This document shows positions 57,085 through 62,645 of a stretch of DNA of 63,063 bases, piece by piece. The notes below the pieces were generated by a model. The model saw only the letters and a list, made by a program, of their open reading frames with translations, did not search any database and was not told the origin of the DNA. The position numbers were made by a program, and so were the translations under genes. The DNA comes from Armatimonadota bacterium (GTDB lineage: Bacteria > Armatimonadota > Fimbriimonadia > Fimbriimonadales > Fimbriimonadaceae). The stretch is taken from assembly GCA_020161505.1 (NCBI GenBank), contig JAIUNY010000017.1, forward strand, positions 1-63,063, in the 5' to 3' direction. Position 1 is the stretch's first letter. Each line of letters opens with the position of its first letter.

Positions 57085-57377
57085 CCCGCACCGTTGCTCG
57101 GCAGATATACGGCGGCATGCTTTGGTTGATGCGTCGGCCTTTCATCCGCCGGATGCAGAGGGGATCACTGAATTTGATCCCGGCAAGCCGCCGCGAAAAG
57201 GCTCGGCAGAGCTATTTGCGTCAGGAGCGTTTCGCCCGTCGAATTGGTCTGCCTTTGGTGACATTTGTTGTCGGACTGGCCTTTTTGAGCATCCTGGCAA
57301 CGGCGATGACCATGCTCATTCTTGAGGGGATCAATCAGGGCTGGTTTCTTGTTCCCACAAGGTCTTCTGGGCTCTAG
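57066..57377 (+). CDS. Small basic single-helix membrane protein
   Basis: A 103-residue protein, family not recognised. The first 60 residues are basic (RRPFIRRMQRGSLNLIPASRREKARQSYLRQERFARR), followed by one membrane helix (LPLVTFVVGLAFLSILATAMTMLIL). GTG at 57066 overlaps the previous gene by 19 nt; an ATG at 57117 (86 residues) is equally possible. The 3' end overlaps the mutY tail by 47 bp. Confidence 0.5.
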   Translation: MLTDGITRTVARQIYGGMLWLMRRPFIRRMQRGSLNLIPASRREKARQSYLRQERFARRIGLPLVTFVVGLAFLSILATAMTMLILEGINQGWFLVPTRSSGL

Positions 57378-58620
57378 ATTTCTTCCAGAGGGTGAGCGCT
57401 TTCTGCGAGGGAGCGGGCAGCGCGTACTGAGTCAGCTCCTCTTCAGTAACCCAGATCAGGTCTTGAGTGGGAGTTGCCGCTTCAGCATGGTAGAGATCAA
57501 CCGTAATCTCGTGATTGGTCACCACATGGTTGAACTGACCAAATTGGGAGAGCGTCGCCTCGGTCATCAGATTCAGTCCTTCCAGTGATGCTTCTCGCGG
57601 AAACTCGTAAAGCCCCGCCCACCATCTTCCCTCGGGCACCGGGCGAATCGCAAATTTCCCATCGTGCGTGAGGATGACCACTGAATGGTGGAGAGATTTT
57701 TTCTCCGCCCTTGGTTTGGGTGCCGGATAATCGGCCACTCGGGATTCAGCGAAGGCTTGGCACCACGGCTGAACCGGGCATGCTCTGCAAAGCAGATTCA
57801 CCGGCTTGCACACCGTGGCCCCGAGTTCCATGAGAGCTTGGTTCCAGTCTCCAGGCGACGCTTGCGCTGGGTGGCCTGGGAGGAGCTGACTCTCTGCCCA
57901 CTTCCAGGCGGCATCGGTGAGCGACTTTGCGCTAGCCTGGTTGGCGGTCAGGCGGGAGACGACTCGCTCGACGTTGCCATCCACCAGAGGAGCGGGCTCA
58001 TTCTGGGCAATCGAAGCAATCGCGCCCGCCGTGTAACGGCCGACGCCTGGCACGGCGAGCCATTCCTTTGCGGTTTGGGGGATGCCATTTTGAATGACCC
58101 ATCTAGCCCCCTCGTGGAGCATCCTCGCACGGCGATAGTAGCCGAGTCCTTGCCAGTGGGCAAGAACATCATCGAGCGAGGCTTCGGCGAGAAGCTTGAT
58201 TGTCGGAAATCGGATCAACCATTTGGTGTAGTAGGGGGTGACCGTCGCAACCGTTGTCTGTTGCAGCATGATCTCGCTCACCCAGACTTCGTAGACTCTT
58301 TGTTCAGGATTCTTGAAAGTTGGGTGCCCCGATCCCTTCAGGGTCGGGAGCTCGTGGGGGGTGTAGCCAAGCTCTGTGGTACTCAGCCCCTCCCGGCCTT
58401 CGGCCACCCTCCCCGAGGCAAGCTCGGAGAGGGCGTCGATTGGGGGTTCGGCATTTCCCGATCCTGAAGGGATCGGGGCACCTGAAGTAACCGAGACTCC
58501 CGATCCCGAAGCAATCGGGGCACTCAAGCTGGCAGATCCAGGTGGGACTCGCCACGGCATCGACCGAGCATTCGCCTGGTACCAGCCCAGCAAAGCCTCT
58601 TGAAACTCAGAACTGCTCAC
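57331..58620 (-). CDS. mutY: A/G-specific adenine glycosylase MutY with repeat-derived insertion
   Basis: A 429-residue base-excision repair enzyme that removes A opposite 8-oxoG. SEIMLQQTTVATV (catalytic Glu), VPGVGRYTAGAIASIA (helix-hairpin-helix), PLVDGNVERVVSRL (catalytic Asp), the iron-sulphur Cys set CKPVNLLCRACPVQPWC and a NUDIX-like C-terminal domain are intact. Between MPWR (residue 24) and YEVWVSE (110) there are about 80 extra residues (GSG, APIPSGSG, APIASGSG motifs) where normal MutY has about 6. The extra DNA (about 58309-58545) is a cluster of the dispersed palindromic repeats. It overlaps pyrF by 4 nt. Confidence 0.92.
   Translation of the reverse strand: MSSSEFQEALLGWYQANARSMPWRVPPGSASLSAPIASGSGVSVTSGAPIPSGSGNAEPPIDALSELASGRVAEGREGLSTTELGYTPHELPTLKGSGHPTFKNPEQRVYEVWVSEIMLQQTTVATVTPYYTKWLIRFPTIKLLAEASLDDVLAHWQGLGYYRRARMLHEGARWVIQNGIPQTAKEWLAVPGVGRYTAGAIASIAQNEPAPLVDGNVERVVSRLTANQASAKSLTDAAWKWAESQLLPGHPAQASPGDWNQALMELGATVCKPVNLLCRACPVQPWCQAFAESRVADYPAPKPRAEKKSLHHSVVILTHDGKFAIRPVPEGRWWAGLYEFPREASLEGLNLMTEATLSQFGQFNHVVTNHEITVDLYHAEAATPTQDLIWVTEEELTQYALPAPSQKALTLWKKSRAQKTLWEQETSPD
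58329..58522. repeat. Repeat cluster inside mutY (type II, I, II, II)
   Basis: Type II hairpins at about 58329-58349 (CCCGATCCCTTCAGGGTCGGG), 58457-58480 (CCCGATCCTGAAGGGATCGGGG) and 58499-58521 (CCCGATCCCGAAGCAATCGGGG) flank a 56-bp type I unit at 58385-58440. The cluster is in frame with mutY and codes for its extra segment. The layout parallels the intergenic cluster at 43491-43705. Confidence 0.8.
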
Positions 58621-59395: not shown

Positions 59396-60835
59396 ATGCA
59401 CGCGGAAATTCTGATTGGCGGCGTCTTCTACGGAGGCCCCTGCGACCAGAGCATCGGCAAAACGCGCCACGATAATCCGGTCACCGGACGCATGGTCGGC
59501 AGTGCCGCCGAAGCAGGATGGGCAGAGGTTTCCGCTGCACTGGATGCCACAAAGGAGGCGTTTTCCACGTGGCGGTTTTCCCCTCGCGAGGATCGATCCG
59601 CACTGCTGCTCCGCATCGCCGAGGCGTTGCGGGAGCGACGACAGGAGTTCGCCGAACTTCTGCGCGATGAGCTCGCCAAGCCGATCAGCCTGGCCTACGC
59701 CGAAGTCGATCGAGCCGCGATCACGTTCGAAATCGCCTCGCGGGAGGCTTCGACTTTTGGTCTTCCGGAGCCGGTGGATGTCTCGCTGGATCCCCGCTCG
59801 GACGGGGTGAACGTGATGGTCACGCGCCGCCCGCTTGGCCCGATTCTCGGCATTGTCCCCGCGAACTGGCCGCTGAATCTGGCCGCGCACAAGATCGCGC
59901 CTGCCCTCGCCAGCGGGAACACGATTCTGATCAAGGCCCCCAGCATCGGCACTCTCTCAACTCTGAGGCTCTGCCGATTGATTCACGAAGCCGGCTGCCC
60001 GGATGGAGTGGTCAACGCCATCGGATGCGTCCCCGCGCTTGCACAGAAAGCCGCACAAGATCCCCGAATCGCCAAACTCAGCTTCACCGGATCACCCAAA
60101 GTGGGATGGATGCTCCGCGATCTGTTGCCGCGACTGCCGATGACTCTAGAACTCGGTGGTGATGCGACCGCCGTGGTTGCAGAAGACGCCGATCTCGATT
60201 ATGCGGTTTCCAAACTGATTCCCAGCGCATTCGGTTTTGCCGGTCAAGTGTGCATCAGCACGCAGCATCTTCTTGTGCATCGTTCGGTTTACGATTCTTT
60301 TGTTTCTTCTTTCGTTGCCGCCTCGGAGGCGCTCACCATGAGTGATCCGACCGATTCCGGCTGTCTCTGCGGTCCCCTGATGACTCCAGAAGCCGCCGAG
60401 AAAGTGATGGAGTGGATCGACGAGGCGGAGGCCGCGGGAGCGCGTGTGTTGTGCGGAGGAAACCGGGTCGGCGGCTATGTCGAGCCCACCGTGATGGAAG
60501 GAGTCACCCGAGCGGTTCGACTCGGATGCGACGAAGTTTTCGGGCCTGTGGTGACGATTCAGCCCTACGATGAACCTGAGGCGATCGTGACCTGGGTCAA
60601 TACGAGTCGCTACGGCATCCATGCGGCGGTGTTCTCGTCAAACCACCAACTGATCGACTTGCTTGATTGCGAGCTTCAAGTGGGCGGCTTGATCGTCAAT
60701 GACTCCCCGAGCCTGCGCTTCGACGCCATGCCCTACGGGGGTATCAAGGAATCCGGCATGGGTCGCGAAGGTATCCGCTCCGCCATGCTCTCGATGACCG
60801 AGGTGCACACCGTCGTGACTGGTTGGACAACCTAG
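59396..60835 (+). CDS. Aldehyde dehydrogenase family protein
   Basis: A 479-residue NAD(P)-dependent aldehyde dehydrogenase. RPLGPILGIVPANWPLNLAAHKIAPALASGN, SFTGSPKVGW, LELGGDATAVV (general base Glu) and FGFAGQVCISTQ (catalytic Cys) are all in place, as is the C-terminal EVFGPVVTI and MPYGGIKESGMGREG. Asn in PANWPLN stabilises the thiohemiacetal. Close to succinate-semialdehyde or glyceraldehyde-3-phosphate dehydrogenase-like branches; substrate not predicted. The hairpin GTGAC..GGTTG..CAACC..GTCAC spans its stop (60816-60843) and may stop transcription. Confidence 0.9.
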   Translation: MHAEILIGGVFYGGPCDQSIGKTRHDNPVTGRMVGSAAEAGWAEVSAALDATKEAFSTWRFSPREDRSALLLRIAEALRERRQEFAELLRDELAKPISLAYAEVDRAAITFEIASREASTFGLPEPVDVSLDPRSDGVNVMVTRRPLGPILGIVPANWPLNLAAHKIAPALASGNTILIKAPSIGTLSTLRLCRLIHEAGCPDGVVNAIGCVPALAQKAAQDPRIAKLSFTGSPKVGWMLRDLLPRLPMTLELGGDATAVVAEDADLDYAVSKLIPSAFGFAGQVCISTQHLLVHRSVYDSFVSSFVAASEALTMSDPTDSGCLCGPLMTPEAAEKVMEWIDEAEAAGARVLCGGNRVGGYVEPTVMEGVTRAVRLGCDEVFGPVVTIQPYDEPEAIVTWVNTSRYGIHAAVFSSNHQLIDLLDCELQVGGLIVNDSPSLRFDAMPYGGIKESGMGREGIRSAMLSMTEVHTVVTGWTT

Positions 60836-60865: not shown

Positions 60866-61219
60866 TCAGACGGAAACCGGATCCGCCTTGCCACTAGAAA
60901 TTGCAGTCAAGACGCAGACGGTGAGGAATGCCAGCAACAGACTAACCGCGAAAACAACGAGTATCTCGTCAACTATCAGTAGATGGTTCGACGCGAACTT
61001 GACCACAACCTATATGGATGCATACAGAGCAAGAGCGATGGCAAGGAGTGCCTTGGCATTCTCACTTCGTATTGGCATGCTGAAGAACGAGAGCAAAAGC
61101 ACGGCAGGTGTACCGAAGCAGAACACTGCAGGAAGGGCAATTAGGGCACCACTACGGTAGGTGAGATAACTTAAGCCGACGAAAAGTGATGCTGAAAAGA
61201 TGCAAATAAAAACCTTCAT
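60866..61219 (-). pseudogene. Small multi-helix membrane protein with in-frame TAG
   Basis: The open part (61010-61219) encodes 69 residues with two to three helices (ICIFSASLFVGLSYL, LIALPAVFCFGTPAVLLLSFF, ALLAIALALYASI) and ends in TAG at 61010-61012. In the same frame 47 more codons follow, including another hydrophobic helix (LLIVDEILVVFAVSLLLAFLTVCVLTAI), to TGA at 60866-60868. The gene may once have been about 117 residues, or the short form may be functional. Its ATG overlaps the stop of the upstream gene (ATGA). Family not recognised. Confidence 0.5.
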
Positions 61220-61605
61220 GTTAAGCCTCGCTCTTTCGAGAGGTGCGTGCCAATGATCAGCCCAATCGGTAACGGCAGGGTAAATACTATCGAGAAAAAC
61301 AAACCGTCAACGACTGAAAACTCGTCAGTGAATCCATTAAGCACCGTGCTGATGAAGAGAAGACAAAGAATAGTCGTTGTTAGAATTGCGATAGCGCTAC
61401 TCTGAGGACTTCTTGCGTACCAGTAGATAGGTGCGGCGAGAACCAGACTGTATATAAAGGCGTCCAGGAAAACTCCAACGCCTCCGACATGCCCCCAATT
61501 GTTTACGAAAGGACTCCGAACAATTGAGACGAAGATATAAGACAGGAAGACGCACGAGACCAGTACTGACCATCGTTTAACTGAACGAAATTTGTCTACT
61601 GACAT
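61216..61605 (-). CDS. Small multi-helix membrane protein
   Basis: A 129-residue protein with four hydrophobic helices: WSVLVSCVFLSYIFVSIV, GVFLDAFIYSLVLAAPIYWYA, AIAILTTTILCLLFISTVL and VDGLFFSIVFTLPLPIGLIIGT. Family not recognised. GGAGA lies 6 nt before the ATG at 61605, one nt after the prepilin stop. Third gene of a tight four-gene minus-strand cluster that is visibly AT-richer than its surroundings. Confidence 0.65.
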   Translation of the reverse strand: MSVDKFRSVKRWSVLVSCVFLSYIFVSIVRSPFVNNWGHVGGVGVFLDAFIYSLVLAAPIYWYARSPQSSAIAILTTTILCLLFISTVLNGFTDEFSVVDGLFFSIVFTLPLPIGLIIGTHLSKERGLT

Positions 61606-61606
61606 G

Positions 61607-62206
61607 CTACTCTCCCCAGTAGTCAGTAAAGTCAATTGTCTGACCATCTTGCCCGCAGCGCGAACCCGCATATCTTTGTTGCACAGATCCATCGAGCTTC
61701 AGTCGGCTCAACTGGCCACAAAACTGTGACTCACCCAATGAAATCGAAGTAGCCCTACCTGGTGAGAACATCCAGGCACTGTTTCCGGGATACATCCTCA
61801 TCCAGTCATCCTGCCTCAGGCCATTGTCGTTTATGGTTGGATAACTGCTCTTGAACTCGTGTGGATCGGCGCTTCGACCGTATTGAGCAAATTTCCGCGC
61901 CCTAAATCGATTTCCCCAACCATCAATTGTGCGATCAAGCGAGGATACAGCAATCGCAGCTGGTACAAGACGCGCGTCGACCAGCGGTCGAATGGACTCA
62001 TCGAATCTGTCGTCATTCAGATCCAGGTACATTTGGCGCGCTAGCCCCATTTGCCTTAGATTTCCAATGTCACTTGTGGCAAATGCCTCGGCTTTTGCTT
62101 TAGTTAGAACAGGAAAGGTGATGGCAGCGATTGCCATCACCACCATCACAACCACAAGTATCTCGACAAGGCTGAATGCAGACTTGTGTAAGTTGTTGCA
62201 CGACAT
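61607..62206 (-). CDS. Atypical prepilin-type protein
   Basis: A 199-residue pseudopilin. After a ten-residue leader (SCNNLHKSA) the motif FSLVEILVVVMVVMAIAAITFPVLTKAKAEAFATSDIGNLRQMGLA follows. It uses F-S-L-V-E in place of the F-T-L-I-E of the other four copies, and is the shortest with a complete motif. The Ser/Val form is still a legitimate cleavage site. It lies 18 nt after the Cys-rich protein gene and 1 nt before the next gene, so all are co-translated. Confidence 0.85.
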   Translation of the reverse strand: MSCNNLHKSAFSLVEILVVVMVVMAIAAITFPVLTKAKAEAFATSDIGNLRQMGLARQMYLDLNDDRFDESIRPLVDARLVPAAIAVSSLDRTIDGWGNRFRARKFAQYGRSADPHEFKSSYPTINDNGLRQDDWMRMYPGNSAWMFSPGRATSISLGESQFCGQLSRLKLDGSVQQRYAGSRCGQDGQTIDFTDYWGE

Positions 62207-62224
62207 ACGTGAGACTCCGACAAT

Positions 62225-62557
62225 CTATGGCGAGCAGCTTCCGGCCGGGCACTGGGGTAGCCCCCCGAAAGCCCAGCAACACTTTCCAGTTAGTGTCCAG
62301 TTTGTGCACTGATAGCTGGTTCCATTGGTATGGCTGAGTGTGATCTTTGTCCGCTGGTATTCAGGGTCGCGCATGAAGGTACTGCATCCATTGTTAGAGT
62401 TTTTGCAAGCAAGCTCTGTTTCTTCGAGCTCGTTCACAACGGCGCCACAGGGTGGCGTTTGGAGCGGCGGCGGGCCGTCCGCTCGCGCACTCTGGGAGGG
62501 GACAACGCCAACAAGGGCTATACTGGCAAGTGTGGCAAGAAAGAGTAAGTTTTTCAT
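62225..62557 (-). CDS. Secreted Cys-rich small protein
   Basis: A 110-residue protein: a signal peptide (MKNLLFLATLASIALVGVV..SARA) and a mature part of about 85 residues with eight Cys (in PPCGAV, LACKN, NGCST, YQCTN, GKCCW, PQCPAG, SCSP). The spacing fits four disulfides. It begins with a Pro-rich segment and ends in CSP. Family not recognised. AAGGAGA lies 7 nt before the ATG at 62557. It is the first gene of the four-gene cluster and has a structured leader upstream. Confidence 0.68.
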   Translation of the reverse strand: MKNLLFLATLASIALVGVVPSQSARADGPPPLQTPPCGAVVNELEETELACKNSNNGCSTFMRDPEYQRTKITLSHTNGTSYQCTNWTLTGKCCWAFGGLPQCPAGSCSP

Positions 62558-62601: not shown

Positions 62602-62645
62602 TTGGTACCCCCCCTGACATATCTGGTATTTTTACCGGGTACCAA
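62602..62645 (-). promoter_or_regulatory. Dyad-rich leader or operator of the Cys-rich/prepilin operon
   Basis: TTGGTACCC (62602-62610) and GGGTACCAA (62637-62645) are a perfect 9-bp inverted repeat separated by 26 nt. The spacer holds a second hairpin, GGTA-TTTT-TACC (62625-62636). On the minus strand this lies 45-88 nt before the start of the Cys-rich protein. It may be an operator, a structured RNA leader or a regulatory RNA; no known riboswitch class fits. Confidence 0.5.

Follow-up and report, generated by a model that had tools for sequence, protein, structure and literature searches.

The far end of the window, the 63,063-nucleotide stretch of DNA analysed here as a whole, holds three close-packed genes on the minus strand, followed by a broken fourth gene and preceded by an inverted repeat:

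62225-62557, minus: secreted Cys-rich protein, 110 aa (from the sequence; member of the Cys-protein profile family)
61607-62206, minus: atypical prepilin with the motif AFSLVE, 199 aa, cassette partner of the Cys protein (from the sequence; full-length relatives in other cassettes)
61216-61605, minus: four-TM membrane protein (MP), 129 aa, predicted N-in/C-in (transmembrane prediction)
60866-61219, minus: second membrane-protein gene, interrupted (TAG at 61010-61012; open parts 61013-61219 and 60869-61009)
62602-62645, no strand: inverted repeat TTGGTACCC/GGGTACCAA, 5' of the first gene, a possible operator

Results

Gene layout of the cassette

Genes 1 and 2 are separated by 18 nt, genes 2 and 3 by 1 nt, and genes 3 and 4 share an ATGA overlap. 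The inverted repeat upstream has perfect 9-nt arms with GGTACC, with 26 nt between them. An earlier, sequence-only reading of this DNA had described a minus-strand operon of four genes, and its gene order, gaps and overlap are as described, but the fourth gene, which it took to reach 60866 intact, is read there through an in-frame stop. This gene consists of 69 codons, a TAG (61012-61010), and 47 codons in the same frame up to a TGA ending at 60866; a frameshift is ruled out, since both parts lie in one frame with the TAG between them. Thus, of the two small membrane proteins that had been announced, the one at 61605-61216, with four predicted transmembrane (TM) helices, is intact, and the second is interrupted. 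Four other cassettes have two MPs in tandem, which share no significant BLAST similarity; this suggests that the broken gene was likewise a second MP. The cassette is a three-gene unit and not a four-gene one, with an extra membrane gene that is found in a minority of cassettes and is broken in the window.

The region 61010-62557 has a GC content of 50.1%, whereas the window as a whole has 59.2%. In a GC scan of the window only 4 of 616 steps were equally low or lower, and the minimum before position 60000 was 51.7%, so that the low GC reported earlier for this region is confirmed. The statement that the other three pseudopilin genes of the window have no such partners also agrees with our data, as the Cys-protein profile matches a single place on the contig (C3).

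The Cys-rich secreted protein

The product of the first gene (62557-62225) is, as had been proposed, a secreted protein of 110 residues with eight Cys. It has an N-terminal signal peptide, recognised by eye (...SARA/DG), the eight Cys lie in the mature part, and the C-terminal region contains a C-P-x3-C motif. Counted from the first conserved Cys to the end, 24 of 25 proteins contain 6, 8, 10 or 12 Cys, even numbers as expected for disulfide pairs, and one contains 9.

No Pfam or NCBIfam family scored above its cut-off for the Cys protein, and no PDB chain was matched by profile A5 up to E 10, the solved TcpF and CofJ chains included; within these collections the protein is therefore without a recognised family, as first noted. 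PHROGs holds no entry matching it, and none of seven proteins matched a PADLOC model of anti-phage defence up to E 0.1. The Shiga toxin A-subunit family was hit by one of 25 Cys proteins (that of G007, with E 0.0039 and 16 bits where 720 are required), which was taken as chance. The predicted structure of the window protein has a pLDDT of 40.8, a level at which fold matches would carry no meaning. A single-sequence search with the Cys protein found no relative in the contigs of its own genome and a match in one of 60 relatives; profiles are required for this family, and the single-sequence result would wrongly imply an orphan.

The prepilin

Prepilins of type IV filaments carry a class III leader, with a small residue before the cleavage site and a Glu at position +5, followed by a hydrophobic helix. 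The second gene (62206-61607) encodes such a leader, A-F-S-L-V-E and the helix, in keeping with the F-S-L-V-E prepilin first reported. Scores against known families are low: with N_methyl (Pfam) the window prepilin reaches 12.3 bits, below the cut-off of 21.2, and 4 of 10 cassette relatives lie above it; with GspG (TIGR01710) it reaches 19.1 bits, below the cut-off of 88.85, and 9 of the 10 relatives were matched, none over 37.8 bits. GspG is nonetheless the best or near-best score, below cut-off, for most cassette prepilins. DUF1559 (PF07596, cut-off 23.3) was exceeded by one of 10 cassette prepilins and did not match that of the window. With DUF1559/GspG-like pseudopilins the cassette prepilins share the N-terminal helix and the Cys/LRQxG segment after it, but the conserved Cys is missing from the window member and from the type A consensus, and their scores stay below cut-off. 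Verru_Chthon is another repeated gene cassette with prepilin-type proteins, for which we know of no Cys-rich partner; its models (TIGR02596, TIGR02599) match the cassette prepilins in the N-terminal helix alone, far below cut-off. In the predicted structure (pLDDT 42.6) the N-terminal helix is the only confident part.

In its 3.14 Mb the genome of the window has 75 N_methyl matches, one match to Peptidase_A24 (prepilin peptidase) and four secretin matches. PilB, C, D, Q and M and 79 pseudopilin genes are reported for Fimbriimonas ginsengisoli (PMC4072686).

The membrane protein

By the positive-inside rule, all 33 four-TM MPs considered are predicted to be N-in/C-in, which would place the MP C-terminus on the same side as the prepilin leader. 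In the cassette at 281 kb of contig C6 of the window's genome, MP and prepilin form one open frame of 347 codons (L086 1364-2407), with the prepilin motif placed after the four TM helices. Cassette prepilins are interlinked by BLAST, each to 37-42 of 42 partners, Cys proteins are partly linked and MPs hardly, the MP being the most divergent of the three. DUF2070 (16.6 bits against 30), CbiM and MerC were considered as MP families, and all fell below cut-off.

Distribution and co-occurrence

Cys profiles were built stepwise (A1, A4, A5). In 101 relatives the search gave 14 places, two of them false; G095 (E 8.8e-4) and G006 (E 0.003), with no prepilin and unmatched by a later profile, were rejected as cassettes. 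In 85 genomes of the family 26 places were found, and at E <= 0.01 the order yielded 46 places in 29 of 113 genomes. All 46 were inspected, and 43 have a same-strand prepilin in the cluster; the other three (G118:C73, G050 and G054, E 0.0058-0.0084) have neither prepilin nor MP and were counted as misses. An MP is also present in 42 of the 43, the exception (G007:C42) being cut by the contig end. Two near-twin pairs are among the 43 (G073/G025 and G002/G004). By arithmetic from the N_methyl genes of the window's genome, the chance of a same-strand prepilin within 1.5 kb downstream is about 2%. In a sample of the phylum, 28 of 291 genomes matched at E <= 0.001, three of them outside the order, and all three outside matches adjoin a prepilin and a membrane protein; in one (L109) the start codon of the Cys gene is not identifiable. 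One further cassette (L026, G032:C20), seen upstream of another, was unlisted by the profile. We define the family by a Cys protein, a prepilin and a four-TM MP encoded adjacently on the same strand, an arrangement that the window shows.

The converse search used a prepilin profile (A7) built without the N-terminal helix, a long match being one of at least 150 of 182 positions. In eight genomes of the genus there were 14 long matches among the matches listed, 13 of which have an adjoining Cys gene, intact in 12 and broken in one (G003, L147); the last has none (G006, L148). Eleven of the 12 cassettes with an intact Cys gene were known from the Cys side, and two of the three new ones have a Cys gene. 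One of these two is a new cassette, located where contig C11 begins; its Cys gene had been missed by the genome profile search and scores 29.8 bits alone.

Two of these loci show individual features. The Cys gene of the G003 cassette (L147 1312-1713) has an in-frame TAA and the prepilin is open, to be compared with the TAG in the fourth gene of the window. In G006 a full-length cassette-type prepilin (L148 1333-1989) lies by an ATP synthase gene (by eye), with neither Cys gene nor MP.

The genome of the window itself contains eight strongly diverged cassettes, one on C3 (that of the window), two on C6 (at 281 and 312 kb), three on C11 (at 0.1, 14.7 and 293 kb), and one each on C19 and C29. The Cys protein of a C11 copy is 28% identical to that of the window and is again encoded ahead of a prepilin and a membrane protein. 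Two gene orders occur among 43 tabulated cassettes: Cys-prepilin-MP, as in the window, in 26 and Cys-MP-prepilin in 17. This table, also used for GC and distances, is without the contig-cut G007:C42 and with the unlisted upstream copy of L026. Three cassettes lie within about 14 kb in G014:C1 (1749054-1763019). The records behind two cassettes are Fimbriimonadaceae MAGs, and the window is taken to come from the same family, in the phylum Armatimonadota.

Sequence divergence, GC content and genomic sites

Distances between Cys proteins correlate with those between prepilins (Mantel rho 0.32, p 0.001, n=41; c31 and c34, near twins of c30 and c33, were left out), both in gene order A (rho 0.23, p 0.002) and in order B (rho 0.50, p 0.001). 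For the whole set, with MP alignments that are unreliable, the values are rho 0.07 (p 0.076) between prepilin and MP and rho -0.01 (p 0.58) between Cys protein and MP, and thus lend no support to a lock-and-key fit of the MP with either partner. The one usable dated pair, G002/G004 (dS 0.57-0.95), gives dN/dS of 0.06 for the Cys protein, 0.04 for the prepilin and 0.07 for the MP; in this pair all three genes are under strong purifying selection.

GC is below that of the flanks in 39 of the 43 cassettes, by 4.9 points in the mean. Cassettes occur in the gap between tuf and rpsJ and beside nuoI-like, atpA, rplI, metG and lysS genes (names partly by eye). One site is orthologous between the genome of the window and G007 (L085, L052). 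An empty-site test with leuA, neighbour of the window cassette, and bcp, neighbour of the C19 cassette, in eight genomes of the genus found leuA beside a different gene and nuoI not near bcp; synteny is lost in these relatives, and insertion or loss of a cassette is therefore not demonstrable.

Two sites stand out individually. The tuf-rpsJ cassette (L107 1238-4717) lies inside a normally tightly kept ribosomal operon, and an IS3-like element with an integrase core (L025 1912-3029) is found directly upstream of the C29 cassette.

Discussion

A disulfide-rich cap or cargo delivered by a pseudopilus had been put forward as one possible reading, with co-occurrence in relatives as its test. The genes stand together in 48 inspected cassettes and the Cys protein matches no family in Pfam, NCBIfam or the PDB sequences, which makes a cap or cargo on a pseudopilus the leading reading, now for a unit of three genes rather than four. 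In its specific form, to which we give moderate confidence, this reading takes the prepilin as a minor pilin dedicated to its Cys-rich partner, which it would display or export via a type IV filament, with the MP as assembly partner. This proposal draws on the co-occurrence, the MP-prepilin fusion, the MP topology and the co-divergence of Cys protein and prepilin, as well as on the even Cys counts, the low dN/dS and the presence of a prepilin peptidase and secretins in the genome.

In such a scheme the Cys-rich protein, with its signal peptide and even number of Cys, would be exported by Sec and would fold with three to six disulfides. The prepilin, possibly a derived GspG/DUF1559-like pseudopilin, would be cut at its leader motif by the prepilin peptidase encoded in the genome, and would be built into a type IV filament as one of its minor subunits. 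Its C-terminal domain may bind the Cys protein of the same cassette, as co-divergence suggests, and the growing filament would show this protein at the surface or carry it out, as TcpB does for TcpF. The four-TM MP, with both ends predicted in the cytoplasm, may hold its one prepilin or hand it over before assembly, a role to which the fusion and the predicted topology point. Several divergent cassettes per genome would then provide interchangeable tips or cargoes, with binding or adhesive specificities likelier than toxic ones.

TcpF and CofJ attach to the minor pilin trimer by an N-terminal segment. TcpF secretion depends on the pilus via the minor pilin TcpB (PMC9565799), and this pilus-dependent route is the closest mechanism. 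Like the cassette, the TcpB-TcpF and CofB-CofJ pairs of type IVb pili combine a small secreted protein with a co-encoded minor pilin that presumably exports it (PMC9565799). The cassette differs from them in a Cys protein with no PDB sequence match, and in consisting of the pair and the MP only, repeated several times per genome and outside a pilus operon. The MP recalls TfpX, TfpY and TfpZ, since TfpY and its relatives are membrane accessory proteins encoded with pilins and proposed to be chaperones or adapters (PMC11841053); these have three TM helices and, in the periplasm, a C-terminal domain, whereas the MP has four helices and a C-terminus predicted to be cytoplasmic. The Kil/Tad pilus tips of Myxococcus likewise comprise several minor-pilin complexes that can replace one another in a single genome, but these involve Tad/Flp-type minor pilins, and the portion of PMC12075869 available to us describes no separate Cys-rich partner. 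The cassette merges these three known ideas, a secreted partner of a minor pilin, a membrane accessory protein and interchangeable tips, in one three-gene unit. Full-text searches, mainly of non-subscription literature, showed no description of it; it is a previously unnamed cassette, with up to eight copies per genome in a little-studied phylum.

Among other explanations, the one that fares best, unlikely as it is, places the prepilin in a type II secretion pseudopilus and makes the Cys protein merely a substrate, released to the medium as a free exoprotein. Such a system normally serves many substrates with one pseudopilin set, and it would be unusual for every substrate to have its own prepilin. 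The sub-threshold GspG scores of most cassette prepilins speak for this explanation, together with type II secretion genes reported for the related Fimbriimonas (PMC4072686).

We consider it distinctly unlikely that the cassette is a toxin-immunity module, in which the prepilin's filament would, on contact, deliver the Cys protein as an antibacterial toxin, and the MP, sometimes duplicated, would be the immunity protein. A small, disulfide-rich secreted protein, a patchy and multi-copy distribution, the high divergence of the MP and its tandem copies in four cassettes, with a broken one in the window, would all fit. Yet the tandem MPs show no significant similarity to each other, Cys and MP distances are uncorrelated, no PADLOC or toxin family scored above cut-off, and the dN/dS of 0.04-0.07 means that there is no diversifying selection in the one informative pair (G002/G004).

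A point against the minor-pilin reading is that the low GC and the scattered sites could reflect shared mobility of the genes and not shared function. A mobile cassette kept together chiefly to spread or to be regulated, with a Cys protein acting independently of the prepilin, is quite improbable. The GC deficit in 39 of 43 cassettes, the sites scattered between core genes and the IS3-like integrase by one copy speak for it; against it, no recombinase was seen in common, the tested pair is under strong purifying selection, an orthologous site is kept between two genomes, and Cys protein and prepilin co-diverge.

Returning to the minor-pilin reading, we know of no explanation for the 79 pseudopilin genes of Fimbriimonas. 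The cassette gives a defined subset of pseudopilin genes concrete, testable partners, namely an unrecognised disulfide-rich family and a membrane protein. A physical pairing would reveal how a single filament machine acquires many specificities, and would make the export of proteins by type IV filaments accessible to genetics in a phylum where molecular work is scarce. More tentatively, the genomes of Armatimonadota may contain whole repertoires of exchangeable type IV filament tips, every cassette supplying its own Cys-rich tip or cargo, minor pilin and membrane chaperone; were this so, a single filament machine would have many surface specificities.

Additional observations

In families f2 and f8 (L079, L080, L081, L110, L111) a sigma-factor-like gene lies directly upstream of the Cys gene; the match to sigma-70 region 4 exceeds the cut-off in L110 and falls short of it in L081, and L079, L080 and L111 were judged by eye. 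Upstream of the G152 cassette (L109 2308-3940) are two genes, judged by eye to be thioredoxin-fold-like, that may bear on disulfide formation. Elsewhere in the window, a mutY-like gene (57331-58620, minus; name by eye) contains an extra in-frame stretch at 58320-58527, bounded by 27-nt inverted repeats, 96% complementary and 106 nt apart, and a further partial copy; this insert resembles a palindromic element placed in a coding gene.
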